DNA of 64,000 nt, from positions 2,617,501 through 2,681,500 of the forward strand of contig JAYKKI010000067.1 in assembly GCA_039881145.1 (NCBI GenBank), written 5' to 3'. The stretch is from Druceiella hillmani. Its lineage: Eukaryota > Arthropoda > Insecta > Lepidoptera > Hepialidae. The notes under the pieces are model-generated. The model saw only the letters and a list, made by a program, of their open reading frames with translations, was not told the origin of the DNA and searched no databases. The translations under genes and the position numbers were made by a program. Of the stretch, positions 7,438 through 64,000 are shown piece after piece. The first letter of the stretch is position 1, and each line of letters starts with the position of its first letter.

Positions 7438-7458
7438 CCGAGAAGAAACCAACGACCA
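7438..7458 (+). CDS. Microexon A1 (Lys-rich linker, 21 nt)
   Basis: The exon lies between TTTTCAG and GTAAGT, phase 1-1. It reads x-E-K-K-P-T-T, where the split first codon (xCC) becomes Pro after a G-type exon. Recurs as A2, A3, A4a, A4b and A5. A canonical donor and a pyrimidine-rich acceptor are conserved in every copy. Confidence 0.65.
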
Positions 7459-7767
7459 GTAAGTAACTCTATATTCATTCGCTATGACAATAAAATCTTG
7501 TCTTTCTACGTTCATTCAATAGTAGGTGGCTATGTTTCCAACACAGTCAATTTATATATTTGAAAGATATGCTTGAACTATTGGAGTTGTTTCAACAAGT
7601 GATGACAATATTACAATAATGCATAAAGTCAAGTAATAATATTAAAACTATGTTGAATATAAGTTTCATTTGATCACGTTGCATTTGTTGTATTAATATA
7701 GATAAATTAAGTTTAATAAGTACAGTACATTAATTTATGAACTTTCATTCTAATTATTTTATATCGG

Positions 7768-7799
7768 ATCTTTCTTTTTAAATTAAAATAAGGAAGGCC
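7768..7799 (+). pseudogene. Dead copy of microexon I in block 1
   Basis: Homologous to I5 (58042-58071) and placed between A1 and B1 as in blocks 3 and 4. The acceptor AG has become GG (ATATCGG). The length is 32 nt, not a multiple of three, and a TAA lies in the phase 1 frame. A GTAAGC donor remains. Read as a lost exon. Confidence 0.6.
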
Positions 7800-8939
7800 G
7801 TAAGCGTTTCAAGTTAGTTTTTTAAAATTTTTTAAGAAGTTAAAGATATTAAATTTAGGACAGGGGAGGCTGAATTCACATTAGATAAGTTATTATCTTT
7901 TATAACTTCTAATTGTGCACATATGAGACTTATTATCTTAATACATTTTGTTCTGTAATGATATCTTTGCTACTTATGACCAATGTTTTTTCAGTGATAG
8001 ATTTTACACACTAGCTGTCACTCAGTGAATAAATTGTGTCAATATTTTTTGTGTGGTGTCAAATTACATATACGGGTAAAATATAACAGATATAAAATAA
8101 TGGGTCGTAATTAAAGTACGATGAAGTCTGTTTCTAATAAATTATGAAGTATGATTTATTTGGCTCAGTTGCTTAACGTTTTACTAACTGCACCTACTTA
8201 CAACATACGGTTCTAACTGGGAATTCAGAAACTTTGTAACTCCGGAGATTCGTAGCGACTATTGCCATTTATCAGTTCATTAAATAGATTTAAGGAGTAG
8301 AATTAATATTTATTTCTGTTTTTTCCGAAATACTCAACTCTGTCTACGATCTTTCTACACACATCTTTCAAGTTTATCTACTATGCATACATACCCACAA
8401 GTGTAGCATCATTTGTTTGGCAATAGCTGCCACCGCTGACCAGTTTGCCGAAGCTTTCACCTACACCTGTGGGAACAGGAACAAGAACAGCAGAAGTTTT
8501 ATATTAGCTTCATGACTCTGAGGGTGTTTTTCATGAAAAAAGATGAAATTTTCATAAAAGTGGACAATAAAGAAATATCAGAGACATTTATTGCCGTTTT
8601 ACAGGGGCTGAAATGGATGTATGTGTTAAGAAGTGTATGGAAATGTCTTTTGAGATTCTACTTACTTTAATTTTTTTAATACTTGCTGTAGTTATTCTTC
8701 AACATTAATGTGATGGTACCTTTTTCATAATAAGCTTTCGATTAAAAGTATAATTTCAAAGTGAATATGCTTTCAGTTAAAGTGTTGTAAGTGTGGAAGT
8801 AAAGGTGATTTCATGATTATTATTACAGTTTTATATAAGATTGAAACGTTGTAAGTAACTTAATGCAAGTTAGCAACTTATAAACCCACCATCTCTGTAC
8901 ACAAACTTTAAAATTTTTTATATGCAGTTAATAAAATAA

Positions 8940-9320
8940 ATCTTTAATTATATAAGCACCATCGGTATCTAACACTTGTCGCCAAAGTGTAGGTAGAACT
9001 AAAGTTCCGTATTTGTAGAATTCCTTGGGCTTTTGATTGAAAAATTGGTGAAGTTCAATTTGACACGATTTTCATATTTAAATTTTCTATCATGCAAATT
9101 ATTAGATAGAAAGTGAAACAGTTGGTAATTAGATGGCAAAAGATCTGAAGAGTATGGTTGGCGAAATAGCATACTCCATCCAAGTGAAGGTAGTTTTTCA
9201 CTCGTTAATTTTGCTACATGGGGCCGGGCATTGTCACATAAACAATAAACTTTTCTTTGATTTGAGGGAAAATTAGCAGTGACTGCACAATGTTCACAAT
9301 ACATTCTAGCTTTAATTGTA
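8940..9320 (-). mobile_element. Mariner transposase C-terminal relic
   Basis: The minus-strand frame 9304-8999 carries D-N-A-R-P-H-V-A-K-L-T and P-Y-S-S-D-L-L-P-S-N-Y-Q-L-F, degenerate forms of the mariner D-N-A-R-P-H and P-Y-S-P-D-L-A-P-S-D-Y motifs. Only the C-terminal third is left. It inserted in the A1-B1 intron and accounts for most of that intron's extra length over block 2. Confidence 0.75.
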
Positions 9321-9542
9321 CTGTTAGCTTGGAAGAGTTCCCAATGAATAACTCCATTTATACCTCACCATATAATCAAAATGGTCATTATATTTTGGCC
9401 TAGGTGCACCTTTTTCTATATTACTTTTTTTTATTACATGTGTAAATGCAGACATTACGATCATTTTAAATTTTATATTAAATTGTAAATTATGAAATAT
9501 GGACAAAAATAATATAAAACAAAATGCATTTTTCTGTTTCAG

Positions 9543-9584
9543 TTCAAAACCTGTTTGCAAATATTGGTGGTGCGCTGAACGATG
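9543..9584 (+). CDS. Microexon B1 (Gly/Leu segment, 42 nt)
   Basis: The exon lies between GTTTCAG and GTTCGT, phase 1-1. It reads I-Q-N-L-F-A-N-I-G-G-A-L-N-D after joining to A1. The GTTCGT donor is unusual but occurs in B1, B2 and B4. Against B2 it differs at five bases, all synonymous. Confidence 0.7.
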
Positions 9585-10249
9585 GTTCGTTGTTTATTTT
9601 ATAACATTTATGTACTTACTTATTTACTCCGTAAGTTTAATGTATGTACATACAAATATACAGGTATACAGGGTTATCTCTCAATAAATGGCTAAAATTA
9701 GAAATTATTTTCTAGAGCTCAAATTGAAATAAAAACATTTGTCTTAATTGACGATTTATTGGAAATAAACAATTTTCAAACATTTGTTTAATATTAAAAA
9801 ATATGGAATGAATGCTCACCCTAACCACTTTAGGAGAATTGTGCTCGCTTTATATGAATTACATAGCTACGAGAATTGCGTCCGCCATGAATATTTCAAT
9901 ACTTATGAGTGAGCGCGAGCATATTTGCATGTTAGTCAATTCGCGAAATTAGATTTCAATCTTACTTTTGTACTTTTCACGTGCTTAGAACCGTCATAAT
10001 GACCATGTTCTTAATTTTTTATTGTAATTGGCAACATCATTAAGATGTATTTTAAAAATGTGGAATCCACTTATTCAAAATAATTGAAAATTTACTTAGA
10101 TAATTAACTTCTATATACCTTATGTTCTAACCTTAGTGATATTTTTTAATAATTTTTCAAAAGAGCATCGAGTTTACACAATACATGAATATGCAAGATT
10201 TTGTAGATAGGAGTTCAAATTGAACGTCACTCTATTATATTTTAGTTCA

Positions 10250-10430
10250 CCAAATTAAACATGACTTTTCACCTCACTCCACAATTAAAAATCTAATGGT
10301 TTGACATCCAGCGATTTCTCACCCGATCTATTTCCTGTAGTGACTGTTCAGAAAATTGCACACTGCCCTTGTGCTGTGCAGTAGTGTGCCTCTGTGCTGA
10401 TAAATAAAGTCCCTCGGAAATACTAAAGGC
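10250..10430 (-). mobile_element. DUF4817-type mariner relic, block 1 copy
   Basis: The minus strand reads P-L-D-F-stop-L-W-S-E-V-K-S-H, matching the S-P-D-L-T-P-x-D-F-F-L-W-G signature of this transposase group. The same relic sits in the B-to-C intron of blocks 2 and 3. Confidence 0.55.
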
Positions 10431-11120: not shown

Positions 11121-11138
11121 ATAAGAAAAAGCATAATG
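11121..11138 (+). CDS. Microexon C1 (Lys-rich linker, 18 nt)
   Basis: The exon lies between CTTTTTTCAG and GTGAGT, phase 1-1. It reads D-K-K-K-H-N after B1. C2 differs by one synonymous change (CAT to CAC). Confidence 0.7.
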
Positions 11139-12374: not shown

Positions 12375-12440
12375 TAAAATTTTTTTAAAGTGATTTTTTT
12401 ATTTTTGGTTCATAATTTTATTTTCAGACAGGTACTATCT
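12375..12440 (+). other. Site of a deleted microexon D in block 1
   Basis: Flanking intron sequence aligns with block 2 around D2: CACTATAAAATTTTTTT on the left and AAAGTGATTTTTTTA on the right. The acceptor and 18-nt exon are missing. A nearby TTTTCAGACAGGTACT looks like a splice site pair but is not homologous to D. Confidence 0.5.
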
Positions 12441-14356: not shown

Positions 14357-14392
14357 TAGTCAAAGACGTCGTAAGCGGTGGTGCTAAACTAG
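14357..14392 (+). CDS. Microexon E1 (Gly/Val segment, 36 nt)
   Basis: The exon lies between TTTTTTCAG and GTAATA, phase 1-1. It reads V-K-D-V-V-S-G-G-A-K-L after the split codon. Phases 0 and 2 both contain stops. E2 shows three synonymous changes and one V to I. Confidence 0.65.
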
Positions 14393-14971: not shown

Positions 14972-16014
14972 CGGGTGGTTCAATAAGTATTCACATTTGA
15001 AAACAGATGGCATTGCTAAGGTAAGTCGATGTTATTATTGTGTGTAGCTATGTTTTGAATGAAGTCAAAATAAATTTGTCACTAATTTATAAGTCAGTTT
15101 GGATTTGATTAATGTTTCAGTAAACATACAATGTGATTTTCCCTAAGATGGAAAAATGCAGTATCGTTCAGTGATTCATTTTTTGGTTTTGGGTGGAAAA
15201 ACATATTAGTAGATAAAACCCGTTGTTGTTTATGGGAAAAAAAGCTCACTGGTATGTCAATAGGAACGGTAAGTAATATTTTACGTAATAAAATGGCGAT
15301 GAAAAAGTTGACGTGGTGGGTGCCACGATTTCTCACTGCGGACAACGAGTAGTTGCAGCGATCAAATGCGAACCTGTGTTTGCAGTAATATAAACAAGAC
15401 ATGAACAACCTTTTGCATCATCCGTCTATAAGACTCGGATATTTTACATTCGAAACCAAGTAAGAGTCGTAAAAATTGGTTGCTTCTGGTGAATCTGGTC
15501 CATAGAAGGCTAAGATGGACCCATCAGCTGGAAAATTCACGGCAATGGTTTTTTAGGAAGCAAAAGACATCATATTTGTAGGCTTCTTAAAAAAAAGGAT
15601 TATTCCTGGACCATACTACAGTTAGTTATTGGTTCGCTTCAACAAGAACTTGAAGGGTACTAATACCATTTGGCAAAGGATAAAGTGTTGTTTCACCATG
15701 ATAATGCTACAGTCCAGAATTCGCAAGGCCAATCTACATGAATTGCATTATGAATTGCTGGACTGGACTGTACTGGACTTTTCACCTGACTTGGTACCCT
15801 GTGAATTTTTTTTGTTCTCATATATGTAGAAATAGCATGCTGGAAAAAAAATTTTGCTCAAATGAGGAGGTCATTGTCGAGGCAGAAGCCTATTTTAGAG
15901 ATCATGATATTCCCATTTTTTTGTAGCGGTTAAGAAAATGCTGAAAAATAAATAATTTGTTTTTGTGAAATAGGTGCTTTGGTCCTAATAAGGGTATTTA
16001 TTGAACCACTCTTG
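14972..16014 (+). mobile_element. Degenerate mariner element A, block 1 copy
   Basis: The ends are inverted repeats (GTGGTTCAATAAGTATTC against GTGGTTCAATAAATACCC on the opposite strand) and TA flanks both sides. Inside, transposase remnants read F-T-M-I-M-L-Q (from F-H-H-D-N-A), L-H-E-L-H-Y-E-L-L and F-S-P-D-L-V-P-C-E-F-F-L-F, then S-N-E-E-V-I-V-E-A-E-A-Y-F. It is frameshifted and lacks an intact frame. A copy at 30697-31775 occupies the same intron of block 2. Confidence 0.8.
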
Positions 16015-16345: not shown

Positions 16346-16387
16346 TTGGCGATACATTAACAAACCTTGGCGGACTCTTCACTGATG
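16346..16387 (+). CDS. Microexon F1 (Gly/Leu segment, 42 nt)
   Basis: The exon lies between TTTTTTTAG and GTATGT, phase 1-1. It reads V-G-D-T-L-T-N-L-G-G-L-F-T-D after E1. F2 differs at three bases, all synonymous. Similar in pattern to B, which suggests an older exon duplication. Confidence 0.7.
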
Positions 16388-18265: not shown

Positions 18266-18286
18266 AAAAGAAAACAAAAGCAGACC
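18266..18286 (+). CDS. Microexon G1 (Lys-rich linker, 21 nt)
   Basis: The exon lies between TTTTTTCAG and GTAAGT, phase 1-1. It reads E-K-K-T-K-A-D after F1. Near-identical copies at G2 (one synonymous change) and G3. Confidence 0.7.
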
Positions 18287-19186
18287 GTAAGTACCAGGAA
18301 ATTTTCATTTTTAAAATTGTCAATTCAATTCCTATATGGCTTGTTACAAGTAGGCTTTGACAATTAAATACCCAGTCCTATTGATATGAATGCTGAAATG
18401 TTGACAGCTGTTAAAGTTTACGGGTGTACTATGTGTTGGTTATTTGAATTTGTATTGATAATATAAAATGCTAAATTCTAACTTGACGAACTGGCCATTA
18501 ATGTGTAGTGCCCAATTTTGCAGCTCTTTGAAAGCAAATGTAAGAGATTAGAAATTAGCTTGTTTTTCCTAACAAAAGAGGGAAAATATGTTTTTCACTT
18601 TTAATAAACTTATTTTCCATTTGACAAAACCGGCACAGTAGCAATTCTTTATGCAGTTCCATCTGGATGGAATGAAATAGTTTAAACATTTCAATTTTCT
18701 AGTTTTCTACTCGGAATTATTCTATTGTAATATTGTAAAGGTCAGAGTAAAATTTTAGAAATGTATTATGATTAACATTTTTCCTTCATGTTTTAATAAA
18801 TGAAGTGTTAAAAAGTGTTATTGAACAAAAAAATTACATAATTATCAAGAGATAATATATATTATGCACAGAGTATGATGATTTTATTAAAAATTATTTG
18901 TTTATATCAATGCTACGTGAGTCTCAACCAGTCTTGATGGTGATACTGGTTTATAATATGGATATATATTTTATTCAACATGGTCACTGGTAACCTTTTT
19001 GAAAATCTTTTTACATTTGCTGAACAATGTTAGGAATTTTATAAGAGTTTTACAATGTAATAGATATTTTTTTTAACAACAAAATGTTTTAGTTGGTAAT
19101 GTAAAGCTTATAAAACCACAAGTATCGCTGAAGATATAAACACATGTATTTTTATGACATTTAATAATTTGAAATTTTGTTTTCAG

Positions 19187-19207
19187 CCAAGAAGGAACCA
19201 ACCACCA
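19187..19207 (+). CDS. Microexon A2 (Lys-rich linker, 21 nt)
   Basis: Bounded by TTTTCAG and GTAAGT. Reads P-K-K-E-P-T-T after G1. Relative to A1, one E became K and one K became E, so the net charge is kept. Confidence 0.65.
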
Positions 19208-19439: not shown

Positions 19440-19750
19440 ACGGCAGCAATGTTATTTTCCTAATAAAATTATTGGAGGTTAGTATGTCTAACGATCTAGT
19501 AAAATTTTTTTCTGGTCACTTTAAAGCTTGAAATTAATACATTCAGGTTAGAAATTTCAAATCACAGCCTTGTTCTCTTCAATCTGAAGCCAGCCAAGAT
19601 AGTAATTTAGCCCTTCTTGTTTCTGATTATGATTAATGACATGACTTCAGTTATCAGACATGGCCCATTGCCTTCAGTTTGCTGATGATTTGAAATTTAT
19701 TTTGAGGCAAAATACTAATCTCATGGTGAGTTGTTTTAAGGTGGAATAGG
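19440..19750 (+). mobile_element. Non-LTR reverse transcriptase relic, block 2 copy
   Basis: The plus strand carries I-N-D-M/V-x-S-V-I-like and F-A-D-D-L-K-F-I-L-R motifs (about 19675-19715), the RT catalytic box. Its start (AAATTATTGGAGG.. GATCTAGTAA) matches 41781-41810 in block 4, so the relic is shared between blocks and replaced the region of exon I in block 2. Confidence 0.65.
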
Positions 19751-20851: not shown

Positions 20852-20893
20852 TACAAAACCTATTTGCAAATATCGGTGGTGCACTGAATGATG
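20852..20893 (+). CDS. Microexon B2 (Gly/Leu segment, 42 nt)
   Basis: Bounded by TGTTTCAG and GTTCGT. Encodes the same fourteen residues as B1 although five bases differ, which points to selection on the protein. Confidence 0.72.
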
Positions 20894-24659: not shown

Positions 24660-24677
24660 ATAAAGAGCACCCTGGAA
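24660..24677 (+). CDS. Microexon D2 (charged linker, 18 nt)
   Basis: Bounded by ATTTTCAG and GTGAGT, phase 1-1. Reads D-K-E-H-P-G after C2. D4 has P replaced by H. Confidence 0.65.
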
Positions 24678-27169: not shown

Positions 27170-27187
27170 CCAATGTCTCGATTGGTG
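27170..27187 (+). CDS. Microexon H2 (short linker, 18 nt)
   Basis: Bounded by TCTTTTAAG and GTAATT, phase 1-1. Reads x-N-V-S-I-G. It is placed like H4 (A-K-A-A-T-G) and the upstream intron is homologous (GAGTTTCTACCAGTCCCA in block 4). The acceptor is weak, so use is uncertain. Confidence 0.45.
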
Positions 27188-30058: not shown

Positions 30059-30094
30059 TAATCAAAGACGTTGTAAGCGGGGGTGCTAAATTAG
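30059..30094 (+). CDS. Microexon E2 (Gly/Val segment, 36 nt)
   Basis: Bounded by TTTTTTCAG and GTAAGA. Reads V-I-K-D-V-V-S-G-G-A-K-L after H2. Confidence 0.68.
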
Positions 30095-30696: not shown

Positions 30697-31775
30697 AGGG
30701 TGGTCCAATAAGTTTTCACATTTGAAGACAGATGGAGTAACTAAGGCAAGTTGATGTTATCATCGTGTGTAGCCATTTTTTAAATGATGTCAAAATAAAT
30801 TTGACACCAATATATAGATTAGTTTGGATTTGGTAAATGTTTCAGTAAGCATACAATGTGATTTTCACTAAGATGAAAAAATGTAGTATAGGTTAGGTAT
30901 TTGTTTTTTGCTTTTGGATGGAGGAACGTGTTAATAGATAAAAGCTGTTGTTGTTGTTTATGGGAAATCTTCACCATTTGTTGAAGTGGCAAAGCTTATT
31001 GGTTTGTCAATGGGAACGGTAAGTAATATTTTACATAATAAGATGGCGATGAAAAAGTTGACTCCGTGGGTGCCTCAATTTCCCACTGTGAACAACGAGT
31101 GGCTGCAGCTATCAACTGTAATATAAACAAGACTTGAACGATTTTTTGCATCCTTTTGCCACCGTCGATGAGATTTGGATCCAATATTTTACATTGGAAA
31201 CCAAGCAACAGTTGATACAATTGGTTGTTTCTGGTGAGTCTGGTCCTAAGAAGGCAAAGACGGACCCATCGGAGGGAAATTTAACGGCCACGGTTTTTTA
31301 GGATGCAAAAGACATTACATTTGTGGACTTCTTAGAAAAAAGGAAAATTATCCCTGGACATTACTGCAGTTAGTTATTGGTTTGCTTCAACAAGAAGTTG
31401 AAGGGTACTAACACCATTCGGCAAAGGATAAAGTATTGTTTCACCATGATAACGCACCAGCACATTATATCCAAAATTTGCGCGGTCAAACTACATTAAT
31501 CGCGTTATAAATTGCTACTGAACCCTCCTTATTCACCTGCCTTGGTACCCTGCGAATTTCGTTTCCTTCCTATATATGTAGAAATAACTTGCTGGAAAAT
31601 TTTGCTCAAATGAGGATGTCATTTTCGAGGCAGAAGTGTATTTTAGAGAGCATGAAATTTCCGTTTTTTGTAGAGGTTAAGAAAATGCTGATAAACTATG
31701 CTGAATAATAAATAATTTGTTTTTGCGAAAATGGTGCCTTCATTCATAATAAAGGTATTTACTGAACTGCTCTCG
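30697..31775 (+). mobile_element. Degenerate mariner element A, block 2 copy
   Basis: Same element and position as 14972-16014, with TA on both sides. It keeps F-H-H-D-N-A-P-A-H (about 31440-31465), Y-S-P-A-L-V-P-C-E-F and S-N-E-D-V-I-F-E-A-E remnants, so it is slightly better preserved, but still frameshifted. Confidence 0.8.
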
Positions 31776-32086: not shown

Positions 32087-32128
32087 TTGGCGATACTTTA
32101 ACAAACCTTGGTGGACTCTTCACTGACG
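32087..32128 (+). CDS. Microexon F2 (Gly/Leu segment, 42 nt)
   Basis: Bounded by TTTTTGTAG and GTATGT. Same fourteen residues as F1 despite three base changes. Confidence 0.72.
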
Positions 32129-33253: not shown

Positions 33254-33274
33254 AAAAGAAAACAAAAGCAGATC
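33254..33274 (+). CDS. Microexon G2 (Lys-rich linker, 21 nt)
   Basis: Bounded by TTTTTTCAG and GTAAGT. Reads E-K-K-T-K-A-D. Confidence 0.7.
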
Positions 33275-34233
33275 GTAAGTACCAGGAAATTTTCATTTTT
33301 AAAGATTTTCATTGCAATTCCTATATGGCTTGTTTACAAGTAGGCTTTGACAATTAAATACCTAGTCTTAATGATATAAATGCTGAAACGTTGGCATCTG
33401 GTAACATTTGTGGGTGTACTATGTGTTAGTTATTTGAATTTGTATTGATGATGTAAAATGCTAAATGTTGACTCGACGAATTGGCCTCTAATGTATAGTG
33501 TCCAATTTTCCAGCTTTTTGAAAATAAATGTAATAGCAGTTTAGAAATTAGCTTGTTTTTCCCAAAAAAGAGGGAAAATATTTTTTCACTTTTAATGAAA
33601 TTGTTTTCCAATTGCCAAAACCGGCACTGTAGTAATTCTTTATGCAGTTCCATCTAGATGGAATAAAAAAGTTTAAACATTTAATTTTTCAAATAAAAAA
33701 ATTTAAAAGTTTCATTTTTCTAGTTTTCTGCTTAGAATTATTCTATTGTAATATTGTAAAGATCAGAGAAAAATTTTTGGAAATGTATTATGATTAACAT
33801 TTTTCCTACATGTTTTAATAAATGTAGTGTTAAAAAGTGTTATTGAAGAAAAAAATTACATAATTATCAAGAGATAATATATATTATGCATGTATATAAC
33901 ACAGAGTATGATGATTTTATTAAAAATAATGTATTTATATAAATGCCATATGAGTCTCAATCAGTCTCGATGGCGATACCTGCTTATACTATGGATAAAT
34001 ATTTTATTCATCATGGTCAGTGATGTCATTTAAATGGTAACCTTTTTGAAAATAATTTTACATTTACTGAACAATTCTAGGAATTTTATAAGAGTTTTAC
34101 AATAAAATAGATATTATTTTGAACAGAATATATTCTGATTAGAAATGTGAAGCTTATAAACCTACAACAAGTATCAATGAAGAGATAAATACGTGTTTTT
34201 ATGACACCTAATAATTTGTACTTTTGTTTTCAG

Positions 34234-34254
34234 CCGAGAAGAAACCAACGACCC
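34234..34254 (+). CDS. Microexon A3 (Lys-rich linker, 21 nt)
   Basis: Bounded by TTTTCAG and GTAAGT. Reads P-E-K-K-P-T-T. Its last base is C rather than A, which changes the split codon with the next exon to His or Leu. Confidence 0.65.
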
Positions 34255-35680: not shown

Positions 35681-35722
35681 TACAAAACGTGTTTGCAACT
35701 ATTGGCAGTGCATTGAACGATG
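35681..35722 (+). CDS. Microexon B3 (Gly/Leu segment, 42 nt)
   Basis: Bounded by TATTTCAG and GTTTGT. Reads x-Q-N-V-F-A-T-I-G-S-A-L-N-D, with three residue changes from B1, more than any other B copy. Confidence 0.65.
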
Positions 35723-37607: not shown

Positions 37608-37640
37608 TTAAAGACACTTTATCAAACCTCTTCCCCGAAG
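37608..37640 (+). pseudogene. Damaged microexon F3
   Basis: Acceptor TTCTTTAG is intact. The body has lost nine bases relative to F1 (the L-G-G part) and stays in frame: V-K-D-T-L-S-N-L-F-P-E. The donor GTATGT is changed to CTATGT. A fallback GTATAA at 37653 would give a 45-nt exon, still phase 1-1. In this block F3 follows B3, with C to E absent. Confidence 0.5.
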
Positions 37641-37683
37641 CTATGTTATTTCGTATAACATTTTGTTTTTAATGTGGTAAATA

Positions 37684-37875
37684 TGCACCCATTTATAATT
37701 AATATTGTGTCAGTCAAAACAATAGAATAGTGCACCCATTTATATATAATATTGTGTCAGTCAGAACAATAGAATAGTGCACCCATTTATATATAATATT
37801 GTGTCAGTCAGAACAATAGAATAGTGCACCCATATATATATAATATTGTGTCAGTCAGAACAATAGAATAGTGCA
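37684..37875. repeat. 47-bp minisatellite, four copies
   Basis: The unit starts GTGCACCCATTTATATATAA and ends CAGAACAATAGAATA. Four head-to-tail copies; the later ones are nearly identical. Unique to the block 3 F-to-G intron; the other blocks hold a single copy-like segment. Confidence 0.9.
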
Positions 37876-39321: not shown

Positions 39322-39342
39322 AAAAGAAAACAAAAGTTGATC
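39322..39342 (+). CDS. Microexon G3 (Lys-rich linker, 21 nt)
   Basis: Bounded by TTTTTTCAG and GTAAGT. Reads E-K-K-T-K-V-D (Ala to Val against G1). Confidence 0.68.
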
Positions 39343-40300: not shown

Positions 40301-40321
40301 CCGAGAAGAAACCAATAACCA
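40301..40321 (+). CDS. Microexon A4a (Lys-rich linker, 21 nt)
   Basis: Bounded by TTTTCAG and GTAAGT. Reads P-E-K-K-P-I-T. First of two A exons 168 bp apart. Confidence 0.65.
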
Positions 40322-40468: not shown

Positions 40469-40489
40469 CCGAGAAGAAACCGACAACCA
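40469..40489 (+). CDS. Microexon A4b, recent duplicate of A4a
   Basis: Bounded by TTTTCAG and GTAAGT. Reads T-E-K-K-P-T-T after A4a. Exon and flanks (GACATAATAA through CACTGTGACAATAAAAT) are tandemly duplicated with a 168-bp period, leaving a 147-nt intron, by far the shortest here. Confidence 0.65.
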
Positions 40490-41899: not shown

Positions 41900-43075
41900 A
41901 TAGTTTCTGAACACAACAGATAAGAGGGGCGTGGAGGGCGTTGTTAGAAGCGCAAGCGGTGTGGATGTTTTAGTAGCCATGGAACAGTGGAGTGGAGAGC
42001 ACCGCGCTTTTGCCGTTGAGGTGTACATTTCGAGTGGATTTTCGCTGTCTGTAGCACGCCGTCGATTTAATAATCGTTACAGTATTCGTCGATTACGTGA
42101 TGGACCATCGATCAACCTCATTCAGTCATGGGTAGCAAGGTTCAGAGCTACAGGATGAACATTAAATAGGCCCAGGGCAGAACCTACACCATTGGTAGCC
42201 ACAGATAAAAATGTCGAGCGTGTTATAGTTTCTATCATTGAAAATCCCCGTTTATCACTGCGTACACGTTCATTGATATTGGGAATTCCGAAATCAACTT
42301 TACAGGTAATAATGTGAAAAAAGCTCGAGTTCCATCCATATAAAATTCAAATTGTTCGATTTACACGATTCTGACTTTGAATTAAGAAAAACTTACGCGG
42401 AGTTGATGTTGTTGAGATTTCGTACTGCTATCCGGATGGGCAACATATTCTTTAGTGACATGTGAATAAGCAGAACTTTCGTTACTGGGATGTCCATAAC
42501 CCAAGACAAATGCATCAAGAGCCTTTACATAAGCCTAAAGTAACAGTCTGGTGTGCCATGTCTGCATCTGCAATCATAGGGCCTTATTTCTTTGAAAATC
42601 AACATGGCCAAACTGTAATTGTGAATTCGGAGAGATATGCCCAGATGTTAAATGACTTTTTCAGAGTAGAACTACAGAATAGTCCATCCTTCAACCAAAA
42701 CACATGGTTCCAACAGGATGGGGCCACACCTCACACTGCTAATGTGTCCATGAATGCAGTGCAGCAGTTATTTCCAGAAAAAAACATATCCCGAAATGGT
42801 ACCGTAGACGTGGCCACCTAGGTCAACCGATTTAAGCCCATGTGACTTTTTCTTATGGGGATACTTAAAATCCGTTGTTTACAAAACAAATCCGAGTACT
42901 GTGACACAACTTAAAGAAAATATTCGAGCCGAAGTCAGTAGGATACCCCAGTCGCTCTGCAAACGCATTTTTGAAAACATGCATGCTAGACTTGAAGAGT
43001 GTGTCAGACTCGATAACACTTTTATTGTGTTTTGAAATTTGAAATGACCATGTCTCTTTTTCTAATGGAGTGATT
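41900..43075 (+). mobile_element. DUF4817-type Tc1/mariner element, decayed
   Basis: An N-terminal part (41931-42158) with M-E-Q-W-S-G-E-H-R-A-F-A-V-E-V-Y and a helix-turn-helix, typical of the DUF4817 domain, is followed in other frames by E-N-P-R-L-S-L-R-T-R-S. The frame 42462-42821 carries H-K-P-K-V-T-V-W-C-A-M-S-A and W-F-Q-Q-D-G-A-T-P-H-T-A. Frameshifts and stops separate these pieces. Catalytic Q-D-G is retained. Specific to the A4b-B4 intron, so it arrived after the blocks separated. Confidence 0.8.
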
Positions 43076-43373: not shown

Positions 43374-43415
43374 TTCAAAACCTGTTTGCAAATATTGGTG
43401 GTGCACAGAATGATG
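43374..43415 (+). CDS. Microexon B4 (Gly/Leu segment, 42 nt)
   Basis: Bounded by TGTTTCAG and GTTCGT. Like B1 but with one Leu to Gln change (G-G-A-Q-N-D). Confidence 0.68.
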
Positions 43416-44877: not shown

Positions 44878-46109
44878 GTGAGTAAGCAAGTAGGTAGAGA
44901 AGTAAGTAAGGTAATAGTTAATATTAAGAATACCTATATTTACTGTACGCATGTCACGTCAAAGATTTTGATTAAAAAGTAATTATAAAATAATGTAATG
45001 TTAACAGTATTTTGTAGAATGTTAAATAAGGTTTAGAGAATATTTAATGCACAATTATTTATTTTTATTACTTTAGATGTTGCTTACAGCCGAGTTAAGA
45101 AGCATTAGTGACTAATAACATTTGTCAGCATCAATTTGTAATTTTGCGAATGTTTTTAATCGCACTTATGCATATCAGTTTAGTTTAGCTAGGAATGCCA
45201 CAATACTTAATAGCATACATAAAAGTACTTTTGCATAAAAAAACTGTGAATTAATGCAATCATATACTTTAATTTGCTAATAGATGTTAAAAATGACGTT
45301 CTGGTTTTGCAATAAAATATCTATTTATACATAATGGCGTTTATACACAAAATATACAGATTGGTTTCAGATTCCATTATATGGAATGCCTTCTTGAAAA
45401 ATAGAAGGAAATTAATGAAAAAAAATTAAATAGCATTGGGTTCATTCACTTTGGTAAAAAAGGGAGGAAATCTGTAAATATGCCACACTTATATGTTGTG
45501 TCGGATTTGAAGAAGAGCCTTAATAATTTCTTAGTAGTTCAGTAAAACTGTTAGTTTAACGGAAAAGGGGACTTCCCCTTTCATATTTTGTTCAGTACGT
45601 GTATGGACATAAGGACATGTATGCAGTTAATCAGCTATATTAACACATAGTCACGTCTCCATACATGCACAGGATCCTTAAGCATTCTACTAGGTAGGAA
45701 CACTTGTACGCATTTTACAATGAAAATGAATGAAAATGTAAATAGAAATGTACGTATTTTTAAATAAAATGTTGATTTTACATGAGTAAGTTACGATTTG
45801 ATGCTGAATAGGGTGATTAATGGAATACTATACTCTACTACGAAATCTCTTTCCATTCATATTTCTGATATTTTCCAATATGGTCCATATTTTCTTTTTA
45901 AATATATTTCTTTTACGCGTTAACCTTTTTTGTTAATTCTTGTCATGTCTATGTGTCCAATGTAGATAAACAAAATATTTTCTTTCACATTAATAAATAC
46001 ATTTTCTTTCATATCCGGATTTTTCTACACATAGTATCAATTACGCTATTTACAACCATTGTCTTTTTATGTCTTTTAAAATTAGCTTCCATATATAACT
46101 ATATACTAA

Positions 46110-46774: not shown

Positions 46775-46792
46775 ATAAAGAGCACCATGGAA
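46775..46792 (+). CDS. Microexon D4 (charged linker, 18 nt)
   Basis: Bounded by ATTTTCAG and GTAAGT. Reads D-K-E-H-H-G. Confidence 0.66.
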
Positions 46793-47041: not shown

Positions 47042-47077
47042 TCATTTCACATGCGTTGAATGCCGGTGTTGACGTTG
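47042..47077 (+). CDS. Microexon E'4 (36 nt)
   Basis: Bounded by TTTTTCAG and GTAAGA, phase 1-1. Reads I-I-S-H-A-L-N-A-G-V-D-V after D4. Same length and donor type as E, so probably an old copy of E. Only 249 nt from D4. The block 2 homologue is broken and block 1 has lost the region. Confidence 0.62.
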
Positions 47078-49144: not shown

Positions 49145-49162
49145 CCAAGGCCGCAACTGGCG
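49145..49162 (+). CDS. Microexon H4 (short linker, 18 nt)
   Basis: Bounded by CCTTTCAG and GTAAGT, phase 1-1. Reads A-K-A-A-T-G. Better splice sites than its homologue H2. Confidence 0.6.
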
Positions 49163-51359: not shown

Positions 51360-52500
51360 ATTCTCAGTATAGTTGAAAAAACTATAAGGGCTAGTAAAAT
51401 TATTGCGCTGCTTGAAGAAGGCTATAGCCAATGTTATGTGTCTCAGCAGTATTAATGTGAGCCGTTCCACCGTCCAAAGAACCGGGCAACGATACCAAGA
51501 AACGGGCTCCGTCAATAGAAGGCCCGGTTCTGGAAGAAAACAGTGCACTGAGCCACGGGACGACCGCTTCATAGTCAGTCAAGCACTACGAAATCGTCAA
51601 GTTACGTACGTGGATCTCAAACAGAACCTCGAGGATGTCAGAGGTACACGAGTAAGCCTATGGATAGTCAGAAAGAGACTTCAGGCCGTCAATATATGTA
51701 GCTATCGCCCAGCTCGGGGCTCAATATTGCTCAGTGAGCATCGAGTTGCCAGATTGATATTCGCCCAAAATTTTTCGTTATGGACTCAGCAAGACTGGAA
51801 TAGTGTTTTATTCTCCGATGAAGCTCATATATCGATTAGTGGTGAGGATCGACGTTGGGGAGTCTTACGAAGACCTGGAGGATACTTCGCAGAAGTGTGC
51901 TTTGATGAAATCACCCCTTACAGTGGAGGCTTCGTAATGTTTTGGGCTGGTATTAACTCAGATGACCGTACCGAGTTCGTTTTTATTGAAAATGGCACAC
52001 TTAATGCGCAAAGGTACATAACAGAGGTTCTTATTCCTCATGCCCAATCCGCATTAACGATAGTTGGAGGCGAGTTCATTTTTATGGATGACAACGCTCG
52101 CGCCCACCGCTCTAGAGACGTTGATGCGTATATGCAGGAGACTGGAATTCGTTGGTTAGACTGGTCAGGTAGAAGTCCCGACCTCAATCCGATAGAACAC
52201 ATATGGGATAATCTCAAACAACCCATCAGAGCCGTAAAACCAACTCCAGAAAACATTCAGGCCCTTAAAAATGTGATCATTGCTGAATGGGAACGTATTC
52301 CTCAGAAAATGATAAAAAACATCGTCAAAAGCACGCCTAGCAGATTAAGCGCATTGATTTTAGCTAGAGTAGGCCATACTCATTACTAAATTTTCAAATT
52401 TTATGTTAAATTAATAAAAAATATTCAAAAATAAACTTTAGCCATTTTTAATGTACTGTAAAAATAAACTTTAGCCATTTTTAATGTACCTGTATGAAAA
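51360..52500 (+). mobile_element. Tc1-like element with a nearly complete transposase
   Basis: The open frame 51403-52389 (328 codons) is a Tc1 transposase. It has a helix-turn-helix part (N-V-S-R-S-T-V-Q-R, residues 18-26), an R-R-P-G-S-G-R-K AT-hook-like GRPR region (39-46), and the catalytic triad D139 (F-S-D-E-A-H), D230 (M-D-D-N-A-R-A-H) and E265 (N-P-I-E-H-I-W), spaced DD34E as in the family. The first helix (A-L-L-E-E-G-Y-S-Q-C-Y-V-S-Q-Q) is in another frame upstream of about 51449, so one frameshift plus loss of the start disable it. A 33-bp duplication lies downstream (52427-52491). Specific to the H4-E4 intron. Confidence 0.9.
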
Positions 52501-54211: not shown

Positions 54212-54247
54212 CCGTCGGAGACGTTCTAAGCGGTGGTGCCAATCTGG
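54212..54247 (+). CDS. Microexon E4 (Gly/Val segment, 36 nt)
   Basis: Bounded by TTTTTCAG and GTAAGA. Reads A-V-G-D-V-L-S-G-G-A-N-L after H4. The V-G-D-x-L-S-x-G-G core matches F4 and links types E and F. Confidence 0.68.
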
Positions 54248-55019: not shown

Positions 55020-55061
55020 TTGGGGACACTCTATCAAACATTGGTGGACTCTTTTCTGATG
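55020..55061 (+). CDS. Microexon F4 (Gly/Leu segment, 42 nt)
   Basis: Bounded by TTTTTTTAG and GTATGT. Reads V-G-D-T-L-S-N-I-G-G-L-F-S-D; differs from F1 by three conservative residues and several silent bases. Confidence 0.7.
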
Positions 55062-56347: not shown

Positions 56348-56368
56348 ACAAGAAAACAAAAACAGATC
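56348..56368 (+). CDS. Microexon G4 (Lys-rich linker, 21 nt)
   Basis: Bounded by TGTTTCAG and GTAAGT. Reads D-K-K-T-K-T-D. Confidence 0.68.
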
Positions 56369-57648: not shown

Positions 57649-57666
57649 CCAAGAAAGTACCAGCCA
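57649..57666 (+). CDS. Microexon A5 (Lys-rich linker, 18 nt)
   Basis: Bounded by ATTTTTAG and GTAAGT. Reads P-K-K-V-P-A; one codon shorter than the other A exons. Confidence 0.62.
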
Positions 57667-57999: not shown

Positions 58000-58041
58000 T
58001 CCTTGGTTTATACAATTTCTTTTTTTAATTCTTTATTTCAG

Positions 58042-58071
58042 ATCCTTTCCTTAAATCCAAAAAAGATGGTC
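58042..58071 (+). CDS. Microexon I5 (30 nt)
   Basis: Bounded by TATTTCAG and GTAAGT, phase 1-1. Reads N-P-F-L-K-S-K-K-D-G after A5. It is the only copy of type I with good splice sites and the expected length relation; copies in blocks 1 and 4 are dead. Confidence 0.6.
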
Positions 58072-61000
58072 GTAAGTGTTTCAATTTATAAATTAATAAT
58101 ATTTGCATAACTAGGGAGGCCGAATTCACGTTATATGGGATAATATATTTTATCACCTCTAACGGTGCCAGTATCACTAATGATATTGTATTATCTTAGT
58201 ACATTTTGATCAATCATGATATTTAGTTATAACTTTTGCAATATACAACCAATGTTTTTTCAATATACCTATTTTACTTGCTAGATGTCATTCAGGGAAT
58301 AAATCACGCCGGTATTTTTTGGGTGATATCATGTTATATATAATGTATAAAATGATGCATCAAATGATATATTTATCATAATTAAAGTACAAAAACGTCT
58401 TTTTCCGCAAAATGATACAATGCTACAAGATGATTGCTCAATTGAAAATTAATTAAAAAGTATTATTTATAAAGCACGATTGCTTAATGTCATTCAAACA
58501 GCACTTACTTGTAACTTAGAACTTCTAATCTCGAATTACGTAACTTCGTTACTCCGGAGTTTTGTAGTGGCTAACCATAAAATTCCAGAGTGTGATTTGA
58601 AAAGCAGAATTATTTTTGGAATTTAATAAAGTTGCGTAACGTTTGTGTTTTTTAATCAAGTCGATCTACAACTGAATACAATATCAAGCATTCACATGTG
58701 TCTACACACATGCAGTCACACAAACATATATGCTATATTGCTCATTCCACAACAGCTGCCACTGTCAATTGCCTTGCAAAACCTCTCACTTGTATAGATG
58801 GAAAGAGGAGCATACTACTTATGCTCCTTTTCCAGGAGGTCTAAATTGACTGTGAAAGTTTTTTCCATGGAAGGAAATGAAATTTTAATAAAAACAAATA
58901 ATGAAAAAATAGCTATGATATTTGTTGCTGTTTTACAGAGGCTGATATATGAGTCATTAATTTCTAGCTTTTGAGCATTTTCACCAAATAATAAAATATA
59001 TTTAGAGGTCATGACCCTTCAAATGGAGCAATACAACTTAAAATAATGCAAAAAAGAATCAAGTGCAAGTTGAATTCGTGCTTTGAGGGTTCCTTACCGT
59101 TAAATCATGTTATAGCAAACCTTTGTAAGTAGGTAATTTACAAATATACAATAAAAAAAAACTGAAAATCGAAGAAGCAAAAGATTAATTTGTCAAACAA
59201 TAATTCCACATAAGTTTATAAAGTAATGATTTATTCCTCGACTTGCACAAAATGTACAAAATTCAAGACCTTTTGTAGAAAATTACAATTTTGATGGGAA
59301 CGGGAAAATAGAGCCAGTGCGAAGTACCCTTAATAGTTTTGATGAGTGAGTCAGTGTGTGATATTCGAAAGGCGGTATATTTTTATTGCATTGAGTAAGA
59401 TGCTTCAAATTTTGATGGTTCTATGAGGCTATAGAGACTTAGTATTTGATATTAATTTCATCTGGAAAAGAGTCTTAAGACACTGATAGACACATGGATA
59501 ACAAAGTGATCTTCGTTCTGAAGTAGGGAACACTAATAAAAAGAAAGTAAATTGTTGAAACTAATATCTGACTGAAACCTACAAGTATTTCGTGTATGTC
59601 CTACTTTTTGAACCTGATTATTTTCTCCTGCAGAGAATTTTAAATGTGTGTCTTGATGCTCTCTTTCTGATAGATTGCTTAGTGCCTTATCCTTTTTAAA
59701 ATTGCACTATCAAAGTAAATTGGTATTTGTTTGTCTCATTTTTTAAATTTTGTTTGTCTCAGATTTTATTGATACAAAAAACTATGTTGACATCAAATGC
59801 TAAAAAATTAGAAAATAAATCTTGGTCATTTAAAATTAACTAAACATTTTTAGTGAAAAAAATGTATACGTGAACACAAAAGAGGGGGGTTTTGAAGGCC
59901 CCTTAAAAGTATCCCAAATCTACTATCGAACAAGGGATTCCACCCAAGAGGGTTAAGCACTGTTCCTACTCAATGAGCCATTCAGAGTCTGCATTTTTAA
60001 TAGAACGCTTTTCAGTCCACACTCAACCAAATTATGGTGGCTAGAAATCCCTTGATCTAAAGGTTTGCATAGTTCTATGTTAATACAGTCTCTAGCAAAA
60101 CTCTACCTGCATCATCATGCTCACTACAATAAAATAATACATGATTTGCATCCTGCATATTGAAACCACAGGAGCACGCCGGGCTGTCCCTTAATGCAAA
60201 ATGATATAAACTCACATGAAAGGCGCCATGTCCCGTCAAGAATTGTGAGGTATAACAATCGCTATTGAGCCAGTTTTCTTTATTCACACAGAAACATTGG
60301 GGAAAAATAACCTAGTGCTTTTCACTTTGGAACTGGGAGAAATCCACCTGGACTGATTGTGACTGATGATGACCTCAAAAATATGTCTTTTTCTATTCAA
60401 AAGTAGTTCATTCATAACAAATTCGAGGCTAAATGGACTCATAATGAATTTCCTACCTCAAGCCAGTGTGAAATTGGTCACCTGTTCTACGATCATTAGG
60501 TTAGCAGGTAGAAATCCTGCCAATGTCAGCCAAGCTTAATAATTTCTAATAGTAGTAGTACATCATTTTTTCCCGTCTGCTTAACACGTTGCAAACATTT
60601 TATTTATTGAATTTATCTGCTTTTTTGACCACCTTTTTTTAGAAGACACTCAACCAATATTTAGTTAATAAACATAATTTTAATTGATTACAAAATGTAT
60701 GCTATGCAGACTTCATACTAGATATAATGTTATAGCAACCAAATGTTCATTTATTTACTGCCAGATGGCACTGATTAAACTTTCGTTAGTCTCTATAAGA
60801 ACTGTGCAACATGCTATCAGTGCTATGTGGTGATAAATTAAAGAACTTCTGATTGCACTGCTGTTTATTTTAGTTTGAAGGCCCCATAGTGTACCTATCG
60901 TAATCAATAAAAATTGTTTATAACTTCTAAATACAGTACAGCGCAGTACATTTTATAAAAGTATTTTAATAATTCATAAGTACAATAAAATATTTCATTT

Positions 61001-61699
61001 TTTAAAAACTTAAACTTGTATTTACTCATAATACAGGTTATGTTTACTGATGACATAGGTACTTTACATTCAATAATATTTACTATTTTCTGTCGATAAT
61101 ATACTACACGATTATTAATGAAAATGTAACTAAAAGTTCTTATTTTTATGGTTTTCAAGCCTTTATCTTTGTTTGTTGCACGGTCTTCATAAAAAGTTTA
61201 AATTTTCCAAAGAACCAAGTTGGCACTATTAAATGTTTGCAATGAAAGTAGTTTGTTTATATATTTTTTTATTTCTAAAACAGATATTTAACACTTATCT
61301 CTGATTACTTGTAACTATAGTCTGTTTTTTTTCATTTCAAGATATCATACATGAATATAATTTCATATTAACGGTAATATAATGGCAGAAAGATGTTACT
61401 ATATATTCTGCGATGAACCAAAAGTGATAAAAAATTATAATTTATAATGTTATATGAAATGGGAGAATATAAAAATTTTTTGTGTTAGATCTGCAAATTA
61501 AAAAGAAAAAAAGCCAGTCACATAATGAATTTTACCCATGAAGTATAAACCTAACATTTCTCCATGAATTTTGATATATATTGAGATGTAAAATGGAAGG
61601 TTGATATATTGCAAAACTGCCTTTTTCTTAAGATCACAATGTTGATTTTTCTGTCTTATTGTTCAAAACATTAATAATAAAGTCAAACCTGTCTTCCAG
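58072..61699 (+). other. Long intron-like stretch without recognised exons
   Basis: The first part matches the downstream flank of exon I in other blocks (58080-58700 against 34600-35150), and 59325-59400 resembles the start of the RT relic at 41695. No B to G exon follows, so block 5 ends here. Confidence 0.5.
60060..60300 (-). mobile_element. Non-LTR polymerase C-terminal relic
   Basis: The minus-strand frame 60287-60075 reads Q-F-L-T-G-H-G-A-F-H-V-S-L and then C-S-C-G-F-N-M-Q-D-A-N-H-V-L-F-Y-C. This is the conserved C-terminal C-x-C-x-D-x-H-x-x-x-x-C region of Jockey/R1-type polymerases. Isolated fragment. Confidence 0.75.
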
Positions 61700-61717
61700 A
61701 TTCTGATGACGACGAGG
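61700..61717 (+). CDS. Microexon J (acidic, 18 nt)
   Basis: Bounded by TCTTCCAG and GTATGT, phase 1-1. Reads H-S-D-D-D-E after I5. Not related to the repeat exons. Single copy, so support comes from splice sites, phase and the similar exon K. Confidence 0.5.
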
Positions 61718-61869
61718 GTATGTCGAAATTCACTTTATATTAACTCTTTCTCAAAATGGTGATGACGCGGACTGGCGCTATTTATTGCAGCCAGTTGGAA
61801 TTAGCATCAAAATATTGTGACAATGATATTTTGTAACATTATTTTTCCATATCTTTAGCCTGTTTAACA

Positions 61870-63586
61870 ATGAAAAACAAAATAAACCAGCAGTCTTGTG
61901 TAAAACACACAAAACAAAACTTTTATCAAAACAAAATTTTCCAGTACAGAAATCACAGGAGACACAGAAATGCTATTGTTAAAAAAAAATGTGAGCTATG
62001 TCAAAAAAAAAATTTCACGAACAGAAAAATTCATATATTCGTTATGTGGTTTGTCACATAAATTATGTTTTCTTTGTATTCTTATGTAACTTCACGCCAT
62101 ATCAGTTTCTTGAAATAAAATTTATGCTTTTAATGTGATAATTATTTATATCCCATACTACAAAGAAACAGAGGGAATTCTGTATCACTGAAAAGTTATG
62201 CAACTAATATTTAACATTCTGAACAGTCATATGACATAGAAATATTACTGCAGACCTGCCAGTAACATTCATGTGCATGGAAATGCGATATTATAGCTAG
62301 ATTTTTGAATCCGATTTTCCTATTTTAATTAAAAACAATAGGGTGAATGTAACAAAACCAAAAGATGTAAATTTATCCTATGTTAAGTTTTTGTAAAACA
62401 TATGTTTAAATCTGAAGGACTCGTATCTTGAAAACGGTGTGGTTTTGAGGTCATATTGAGGTTACACGCACTTCATTTAAGTCTTAGGACCACTTAAATT
62501 TTATAATATTGAGGACGCCGTAAAAATCCTTTCCCTAATTTTGCTGTGATAGGTATCAAACAAACAGAGAGACAAACAAATATTTTTAAAATGTTCTTTT
62601 TTTTTAATTGTATGCACAGCCTTTTATGCCTTTACTGTTTTATTATATGTACAGTTTGTTTTTACATTTTTTTACAAGTTTTGATACTTTGAACTTTTTT
62701 TCTCATGAACACCATAGGTGCAAAAGTGAGTTATTTTTAAAATTTGGTACATAGAGCAAGGAATGAGATGCTTACAAAATTAAATCATTATCTAGCTATT
62801 TGTAGAAAATTTTTGGAATATGAAACAAATAAATAAAAAAGGTGACCAGAAAAATAAATTACTGTTGTTAAAGTAAACAAAAGAAAAAACAGTTCTAAAA
62901 ATTCATCAAATTTCATTTTCTTTTGGTTTCCAAAATTATTAATGATATAAATGTGAAAAAATTTGTGAAAACATACTAAGTATGTTAATTTTCAAGATCG
63001 TAGAAAAATTGTTAGCAGGTCTTTCACACTGAAATGGTTCTAAAAAATTCAAAGACTTGCAAAGAAATTGTATTAAAATGTTTTTATAATTCACTTTTTA
63101 TAATCGATGTTATCTTTATTTATATTCATACATACATCGGTGAAGCGAATATGAATATTGAGGAAGTTTATAACCAATAACAAATCAAAAGTCTATGAAG
63201 ACAAGTGGCGGATTTTACTTTTTTCTACAAATCCATCAATGGACAAATTGATTCCCTGGAGATATTAGAACAATTCGGCCTTATCTGCTCTAAATGAGGT
63301 TTAAGGACTTGAAAAGTGAGGTTTAAGGATCTAAGAAAGCTATGTGTACCACGGGGCAAGAAACAGGTAGTAAATCTACTTAATGAATATTATTTTGATG
63401 TCAATATTTTTGAAAATATTTATCAATCTCTTGTCAAATGTAAAAAATACTGTACTGACTCACTGATACATTGCATCTCATTTATATTGAATTTTTACAA
63501 AAACAAATATTGCTAATTGCTAATTTCAGTTATATATAGCCAATTATATAAATATATATTAATTTAATTTCTCTTTCAATTACCAG
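61870..63586. other. Intron-like stretch, nothing recognised
   Basis: AT-rich. A weak LINE-tail-like segment (62400-62580, ending CAAACAAACAGAGAGACAAA) is the only distinctive part. The frames at 61870 and 63316 show no motif. Confidence 0.4.
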
Positions 63587-63598
63587 ATGACGAAGATG
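63587..63598 (+). CDS. Microexon K (acidic, 12 nt)
   Basis: Bounded by TTACCAG and GTAAGT, phase 1-1. Adds D-D-E-D after J. At four codons it is the smallest exon in the window. Single copy; the correct phase and the acidic theme shared with J support it. Confidence 0.5.
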
Positions 63599-63976
63599 GT
63601 AAGTTTATTTCTTTATTCATATATTAGATTTAGGACATATTTTTTTTATTTCTGCATATTTTGTATAATATAAGTTCTACTTATTAATTTAAGATAAACA
63701 GTTTACTATTATAAACATTTATGTTGATGATTTCCCCTGTTTAAAATATTTTTTACTTTGCTTGTTTTACGTCTCGCACACAGCAACCAGATAAAATATG
63801 CTCCGTCTTGCTTGTTTTCTTTGCACTAGACACACAAAATCTATATAGTCTTTAATATTTTCTATAATTAATTTTATTAAATAACATCCTTCTAAGTTAA
63901 TAAGGCTGCTTTTTAATAGACTGTTCAAAGAGGATGTAAATATTATTTCAATTTCAATACTGTTAGTAATTTACAG

Positions 63977-64000
63977 ATGCCAGAGGAGTCAAGTTTACCA
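63977..64000 (+). CDS. Exon L, start only (runs off the edge)
   Basis: Acceptor TTTACAG at 63970-63976, then an open frame in the required phase: D-A-R-G-V-K-F-T. The rest lies beyond 64000. Confidence 0.45.

Follow-up and report, generated by a model that had tools for sequence, protein, structure and literature searches.

The window analysed here, a stretch of 64,000 nt from Druceiella hillmani (contig JAYKKI010000067.1, hereafter C67, positions 2617501-2681500, plus strand), contains 31 modelled phase-symmetric microexons between positions 7438 and 63598, and it probably represents the middle of a single insect gene of ~163 kb (gene 1) with a modular secreted product. Unless a contig is named, positions are counted from the start of the window, with negative values and values above 64000 lying beyond its edges; the genome searched comprises 2,586,002,920 bases in 181 contigs. 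Microexons were detected by scanning for AG...GT segments having relatives of equal length, which yielded families of 18, 21, 36, and 42 nt whose splice signals agree, and then by means of family matrices, which added further members; most families score far above the best antisense match. The 31 microexons range from 12 to 42 nt and together occupy 831 nt (1.47% of 7438-64000), and every one of them has a length divisible by three, begins at codon position 2, and ends with codon position 1. Several families are represented more than once in the window (A, 21 nt, five copies; B, 42 nt, four; C, 18 nt, three; D, 18 nt, two; E, 18 nt, two; F, 36 nt, three; G, 42 nt, three; H, 21 nt, four), and others by one copy each (X, 36 nt; A', 18 nt; I, 30 nt; J, 18 nt; K, 12 nt). 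The exon order A-B-C-D-X-E-F-G-H recurs, with losses, in units starting near 7.15, 18.9, 33.9, and 40.0 kb, and units at 57.6 and 75.7 kb bear A', I, and charged exons. Matches between units are ~64-87% identical, and the recurrence arises from tandemly duplicated blocks that contain the introns as well as the exons.

All of the window exons lie on the plus strand. The first unit contains A1 (7438-7458; 21 nt, (x)EKKPTT, with CAG/GTAAGT borders and a five-member family), B1 (9543-9584; 42 nt, QNLFANIGGALND, from a family of four and with a weak, recurrent donor, GTTCGT), C1 (11121-11138; 18 nt, KKKHN), F1 (14357-14392; 36 nt, VKDVVSGGAKL, which is likewise open as a 63-nt form ending at a later donor), and two family matches, G1 (16346-16387; 42 nt, GDTLTNLGGLFTD) and H1 (18266-18286; 21 nt, KKTKAD). 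The second unit is composed largely of family matches, namely A2 (19187-19207; 21 nt, KKEPTT), B2 (20852-20893; 42 nt, QNLFANIGGALND), F2 (30059-30094; 36 nt, IKDVVSGGAKL), G2 (32087-32128; 42 nt, GDTLTNLGGLFTD), and H2 (33254-33274; 21 nt, KKTKAD), together with C2 (22880-22897; 18 nt, KKKHN), D2 (24660-24677; 18 nt, KEHPG, with a partner at 46775), and the doubtful E2 (27170-27187; 18 nt, NVSIG), which has an AAG acceptor and is 67% identical to its partner. Only A, B, and H are kept in the model of the third unit, where C to G are missing; all are family matches (A3, 34234-34254, 21 nt, EKKPTT; B3, 35681-35722, 42 nt, QNVFATIGSALND; H3, 39322-39342, 21 nt, KKTKVD). In the fourth unit, family matches are A4a (40301-40321; 21 nt, EKKPIT), B4 (43374-43415; 42 nt, QNLFANIGGAQND), and D4 (46775-46792; 18 nt, KEHHG). 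The same unit contains A4b (40469-40489; 21 nt, EKKPTT), which starts 168 bp past the start of A4a, C4 (44860-44877; 18 nt, KKKEN), X4 (47042-47077; 36 nt, ISHALNAGVDV, a weak match to the F family), and E4 (49145-49162; 18 nt, KAATG, with a partner KVATD in gene 2, described below). Copies in gene 2 are also found for F4 (54212-54247; 36 nt, VGDVLSGGANL), G4 (55020-55061; 42 nt, GDTLSNIGGLFSD), H4 (56348-56368; 21 nt, KKTKTD), A'5 (57649-57666; 18 nt, KKVPA, partner at 76236), and I5 (58042-58071; 30 nt, PFLKSKKDG, partner at 76672). The last two window exons are J5 (61700-61717; 18 nt, SDDDE, partners at 70522, 83743, and 92578) and K5 (63587-63598; 12 nt, DED, partners at 71441, 85039, and 105331). 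C1, C2, and C4 match a genome-wide KKKxx pattern. The donors of all four B exons (at 9543, 20852, 35681, and 43374) read GTTCGT or GTTTGT, far from the consensus, and the gene 2 copy reads GTGTGT; the B exon is perhaps regulated.

Gene 1 leaves the window on both sides, like exons being found upstream to -46861 and downstream to 115604 (KKKKA, KVTPPKT, KAKKHKG, SDDDE, DED, AKKAA, KKKAE, KKVLD, and others). The model extends from -46861 to 116414 (C67:2570639-2733914; 163,276 bp) and comprises 74 exons with 1968 coding nt including the stop, 655 amino acids without an internal stop, and 73 introns of 147 nt to 21.2 kb (median 1.7 kb). Phase-symmetric internal exons number 71 (12-69 nt, all divisible by three), among which 27 are of 18 nt, five of 12 nt, and four of 36 nt; 53 are no longer than 30 nt, and 54 are shorter than 36 nt. 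These 71, out of 72 internal exons, start at codon position 2, as does the last exon of the model, the exception being exon 2 (31 nt, TIPANCKKND; TIPANCERNE in gene 2), which is entered at codon position 1 and shifts the phase from 0 to 1. Exon 1 (42 nt, MKKLLIITLLVAYY; MQKLLIITLLVAFY in gene 2) has a conserved 5' flank and was located by alignment with gene 2, and a candidate last exon (116350-116414; 65 nt coding) has an acceptor, an in-frame stop, and AATAAA just behind it. A microexon at 94728-94739 (plus strand, DDE) has the donor gcaagt and thus a GC-AG intron, the only one of this type, in a family that is otherwise standard. Apparent signal peptides at -38009 and -37414 were rejected as translated pyrimidine tracts before two internal 30-nt exons, the signal-peptide reading near -38 kb having been dropped because the frame is not kept in the copies in genes 2 and 3.

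That the exons recur says little by itself, since the duplicated blocks carry exons and introns alike, and selection was therefore tested at the protein level. Over all pairs in 20 families, synonymous divergence is 0.435 and nonsynonymous divergence 0.082 (omega 0.19), and the first, second, and third codon positions have 45, 22, and 82 substitutions, respectively. As all pairs are not independent, the test was repeated with neighbouring (chain) pairs, which differ by 27, 14, and 49 substitutions at the three positions in 729 nt; none of 5000 equal-length, gap-free intron draws reaches so high a third-position share, and none of 5000 so low a second-position share. The 30 exon pairs free of gaps have a probability near 3e-16 under flank rates, a figure biased by the choice of families for equal length. 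Between -39000 and 117000, AG..GT candidates of 9-99 nt with a summed splice score of at least 10 number 53 on the plus strand, of which 39 have a length divisible by three; among these, 32 can be read through in the common phase, as against 26 and 17 in the remaining phases. The corresponding minus-strand counts are 9, 2, and 1; with a score of at least 5, the counts are 273, 138, and 87 (plus) versus 124, 44, and 15 (minus). Words enriched beside the exons are mostly T-rich or AT-rich and are confounded by the duplications. A real protein-coding gene is, on this evidence, almost certain, the case being carried by the codon-position pattern and by a second gene on the opposite strand. The alternative is that these are exon-like AG...GT segments in duplicated intronic or intergenic DNA, or in a decayed gene, for which wholesale block duplication would produce recurrence automatically and in which the absence of some exons from several units would be no surprise. 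It appears extremely improbable given the third-position excess, the low omega, the intron control, and the strand asymmetry, as well as the same families being open and splice-bounded in the second gene and the start exon being conserved in three places.

A search of the 2.59-Gb genome places the exon 1 region at three sites, which lie in one 426-kb part of C67: at 2570540 (gene 1), at 2494380 on the plus strand (gene 3), and at 2919838 on the minus strand (gene 2). Exon 1 itself is positioned at C67:2494475 in gene 3 and at C67:2919899 in gene 2. Exon 1 and its 5' flank are 87% alike at the two further places, and the cluster probably contains three such genes. Gene 3, assumed here to be a working gene, was read in two stretches only (2494201-2496700 and 2500201-2501400), and its exon 1 encodes the same 14 residues as that of gene 1. 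Gene 2 was read in the stretches C67:2830501-2866500 and 2910201-2924700, the first of which contains, in order, H, A, G, H, A, B, C, E, F, G, H, A', I, F, G, H, A', I, a KKKDS exon, J, and K (21 exons, once three overlapping readings and two weak matches containing stops are set aside). The families thus follow the same order as in gene 1, some being missing; D and X exons were not found in the part of gene 2 read. All 20 scored exons of gene 2 are open and have AG/GT borders (a 24-nt A variant at C67:2863769 was left out for its length), and in comparison with the nearest gene 1 exon they have 14 substitutions at the first codon position, 6 at the second, and 20 at the third (omega 0.41). 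The 5' exons of gene 2 were found upstream, and the region of a 66-nt Gly-rich exon has a gene 2 copy in place (2897761-2897936). The 18-nt KKKxx microexon pattern with its splice sites has ten exact matches in the whole genome, eight in gene 1 and two in gene 2 (minus strand, C67:2834497 and 2850966), compared with one for the reversed control. A 971-bp query spanning F and G gave at least 42 matches (40 of 50 candidates scored), 14 of them on C67; the 28 on other contigs look like dispersed repeats, covering only query positions 221-336 and 395-533 and no exon.

A gene of phase-symmetric microexons had been proposed in a preliminary description of this DNA, and the frame, the selection, and the second gene all uphold it. 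Its estimate that less than 2% of the span is coding agrees with the share given above, and its warning that an ORF-based search would miss the gene is borne out, none of the microexon gene being visible in a search for open reading frames (ORFs). The ~32 microexons that it counted do measure 12-42 nt in multiples of three and share one phase, but the model has 31 of them, and the order that it called fixed recurs with losses. Its 56-kb span of 32 exons was too small by far, given a model of ~163 kb and 74 exons, and its single gene is replaced by an exon 1 region in three places of one cluster, probably three genes.

The mature product of the gene 1 model has 637 residues and is rich in Lys (19.5%), Asp (11.6%), Ala (11.0%), and Gly (9.4%), with no Arg, no Tyr, one Cys, and two Trp; the window exons encode no Cys, and Arg is present in exon 2 of genes 2 and 3. 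In its first part, Lys linkers are interspersed with Gly/Leu segments (LAGGLTKGIGGTLDKTVG, QNLFANIGGALND, GDTLTNLGGLFTD), and its last third, which lies mostly outside the window, alternates basic blocks (KKKAE, KKKKA) with acidic ones (SDDDE, DED). The Lys linkers and Gly/Leu segments had already been recognised, but incompletely, since the signal-peptide-like start and the tail of alternating SDDDE/DED and KKKAE-like blocks had been missed. Given the signal-like N-terminus (MKKLLIITLLVAYY-TIPA), which is near-identical in gene 2, the product is very likely secreted, and the charged tail is probably disordered. Searches were made with an earlier model, in which the first exon was wrong and three 5' exons were missing, the remainder being as in the final model: no Pfam family was found at E<=1, and residues 1-400 had no relative at E<=1 among 8000 scored candidate proteins of ~350-1113 amino acids. 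Self-association is suggested because the composition combines hydrophobic Gly/Leu segments with oppositely charged blocks. A self-associating material is our tentative preference, held likelier than a host-directed effector, which seems unlikely, or another role, and purifying selection leans weakly in the same direction.

A number of candidate exons were left out of the model. The group at 8026-8055, 58296-58322, and 76919-76948 (NKLCQYFLC, NKSRRYFL, and NKSRQYFSC) is recurrent and open in the common phase, has poor donors, and perhaps represents decayed or rarely used exons. Further recurrent candidates with a poor donor or acceptor were left out at 15121-15132 (with 30846-30857), 19590-19601 (with 85948-85959), and 66169-66183 (with 89932-89946), as were single candidates at 45673, 59634, -19856, -17184, -170, 5694, and 6640, and one at 78907, which has good splice scores and lies ~100 bp from a transposase frame. 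The segments at 42055 and 42760-42798 were rejected, their recurrence being due to a transposon copied at 131.5 kb. Other mobile elements are recognisable by eye in and around the gene: a 333-codon open frame resembling a Tc1-like transposase in the intron between E4 and F4 (51388-52386, plus strand) and, upstream of exon A1, minus-strand fragments reading like a hAT transposase (4998-6500) and a non-LTR reverse transcriptase (1-431). An insertion seems to have split the block copy preceding A, the segment 3764-3990 matching 18695-18904 and 33714-33937. Between genes 1 and 2, two minus-strand frames of 647 and 650 codons (150279-152219 and 179997-181946) read like intronless ionotropic receptors. 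The first of these has ten matches at 24-27% (Pfam PF00060, PF10613, or PF24061), some of them named IR7d; its named matches are presumably lepidopteran. Elsewhere in the genome, 31 COX1-like matches on contigs C57, C6, C92, and others, 30 of which have internal stops in the standard code, are apparently nuclear inserts of mitochondrial DNA, and TTAGG repeats are present. For one COI-like insert, the sole record bearing an organism name among at least 120 matches is a UniRef entry labelled Mesembrina meridiana (84%). Taken together, these features point to an arthropod and probably to an insect.

Several points weigh against a single working gene with a secreted, self-associating product. Gene 1 is a model built from genomic sequence. 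Exon identity (87%) exceeds that of the flanks (81%) and of gap-free flank pieces (85%) only modestly, and a difference so small would also suit duplicated non-coding DNA; in families E and F the copies resemble one another less than their flanks do, equal length was required of the families (so that the lack of indels was partly selected), and the gene 2 omega of 0.41 is a weaker signal than the 0.19 within gene 1. A few copies are degenerate, as the non-coding alternative would likewise have it: the second repeat has an X copy that seems to have decayed, and a G copy of the third unit (37608-37640), which was not counted, has a 9-nt in-frame deletion and has lost its donor site (it is directly followed by a 47-bp minisatellite of ~4-5 units, 37608-37871 overall). 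The absence of Arg and Tyr is a property of the chosen exon set, because the 8026 group and the candidate at 78907 would add such residues, and with some of the omitted recurrent candidates the product would gain Arg, Tyr, and Cys. The signal-like start was judged by eye only, and the tentative assignment to a self-assembling material rather than to another role is drawn from composition alone. Finally, the last exon is tentative, being based on its acceptor, stop, and AATAAA; it lies in a region without a second copy on C67, no copy of it was found in gene 2 or gene 3, and a 115-bp stretch whose end falls within the exon matches contig C121 at 77%, in what looks like a repeat.

The terminal exon also bears on the possibility of two or more transcription units (e.g., a Gly/Leu gene and a separate charged-tail gene) or of many alternative starts or ends. 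The lack of a terminal exon copy in genes 2 and 3 would fit such an arrangement, as would introns of up to 21 kb in a structure read from genomic DNA. Nevertheless, several transcription units are distinctly unlikely: no second conserved exon 1 lies inside gene 1, the search having given a single place for each of the three genes; gene 2 interleaves its charged exons (A', I) with hydrophobic ones (F-G-H), as one transcription unit would predict; and the 71 internal exons and the last exon are all entered in one phase.

In the preferred reading of one ~163-kb gene, the 42-nt first exon would provide a signal-peptide-like start, the 31-nt exon would complete the signal (TIPANC...), and the 71 internal exons, joined with them in one mRNA, would each contribute one short in-frame module. 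Because the phase is uniform, duplication, loss, or skipping of a module leaves the reading frame intact, and the same would hold for whole blocks of exons and introns; in-frame loss of modules is seen in the third unit (C to G) and, on a smaller scale, in the 9 nt missing from the decayed G copy. The gene grew by tandem duplication of blocks (the units at 7.15, 18.9, 33.9, 40.0, 57.6, and 75.7 kb). Its secreted product would present hydrophobic Gly/Leu segments and Lys linkers first and then a charged tail, and its tentatively favoured use would be as a gland product that self-associates via Gly/Leu segments and oppositely charged blocks. Such a product may form a material or a coating outside the cell, and exon skipping could give rise to variants of it.

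The closest precedents appear to be the aphid bicycle genes and, above all, the megacycle genes. According to the paper describing them (PMC9168663), bicycle genes have many small internal exons, almost all starting at codon position 2, with ~17 exons on average and, in many cases, secretion signals and CYC motifs; they are characterised by salivary gland expression and by occurrence in aphids, phylloxerids, and scale insects, and in three aphids they number from ~121 (pea aphid) to several hundred. Gene 1 shares with them its many tiny internal exons (71, of 12-69 nt), the entry at codon position 2, and a signal-like N-terminus, and differs in having no CYC motif (one cysteine in 637 mature residues) and in having 74 exons, with three 5' ends in one cluster in place of many genes. 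Aphid megacycle genes, according to the same paper (PMC9168663), contain >100 microexons (one has 118 exons, ~100 kb, and 2092 amino acids), encode a secretion signal and internal tandem duplications with no obvious CYC, are strongly expressed in salivary glands in three species, and occur as three paralogs in two aphid species, with none detected in the paper's non-aphid species. Gene 1 is likewise a giant gene of tiny exons with a predicted N-terminal secretion signal, internal tandem duplication, and no obvious CYC; its repeated intron positions have a counterpart there, the units of gene 1 keeping one exon order, and the three 5' ends recall the three megacycle paralogs. The likeness is one of architecture; the product here consists of Lys/Gly/Leu and charged blocks, and the size of a megacycle product (~2000 amino acids) is not approached by 655 amino acids from 74 exons over 163 kb. 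Schistosome micro-exon genes (MEGs; PMC4671649) have two long flanking exons around a largely symmetric core of microexons <36 nt, and their mostly secreted products are small (~10 kDa on average), with amphipathic helices predicted for some. The core of gene 1 is similar (54 of 71 exons <36 nt, 71 of 71 divisible by three), and its product is predicted to be secreted as well; the coding parts of its end exons, however, measure only 42 and 65 nt, the product is ~67 kDa, and the animal phylum differs. In the open-licence text of PubMed Central, no such gene was found described except in the bicycle/megacycle paper and the schistosome papers.

Gene 1 thus appears to work like a megacycle gene in its architecture, and in the absence of the bicycle CYC motif and of megacycle size this likeness does not amount to demonstrated membership. 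The preliminary description had chosen precedents of the right kind, schistosome micro-exon genes and aphid bicycle genes. It was also correct that the bicycle motif is missing, but it separated the gene too sharply from the bicycle group, with which entry at codon position 2 is shared and in which the megacycle genes have no obvious CYC either; its "undescribed system" is an architecture already known, in a form that is new. A bicycle- or megacycle-type gene in the full sense, i.e., one encoding a protein of the saliva that is passed into a host or food plant, whether homologous or convergent, is unlikely. The internal exon codon phase is identical to that of bicycle genes, and the published structure classifier (cut-off 0.72), with its printed coefficients, gives z = +36.5, a value far outside the training range and driven by exon count. 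Set against this are the missing CYC motif and the lack of any detected protein similarity in a search covering proteins of ~350-1113 amino acids, below megacycle size. In addition, the bicycle paper reports no such genes in Psylloidea, Aleyrodoidea, and Fulgoroidea, and it reports elevated ratios for bicycle genes, compared with an omega of 0.19 between paralogous exons here, in a comparison of a different kind (PMC9168663). It is conceivable, and we advance it with some reserve, that three clustered, megacycle-like giant genes arose independently in an insect that does not belong to the aphid-coccid group, each building a Lys-rich, nearly Arg- and Tyr-free secreted protein with oppositely charged blocks from dozens of exchangeable in-frame modules, so that length and charge pattern may be tuned by exon skipping and block duplication.

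Judged by its sequence, this is a real and striking gene, a known architecture in a new form. If it is transcribed as modelled, it would represent an extreme microexon gene, in which 53 of 71 exons no longer than 30 nt lie amid introns with a median of 1.7 kb, and it would test how the spliceosome finds such tiny exons. It would also indicate that secreted proteins encoded by giant microexon genes of uniform phase can have a chemistry quite unlike the bicycle motif, so that the common denominator may be gene architecture and not fold. The paralogous exons within one cluster would then provide a direct record of the growth and shrinkage of a modular secreted protein.

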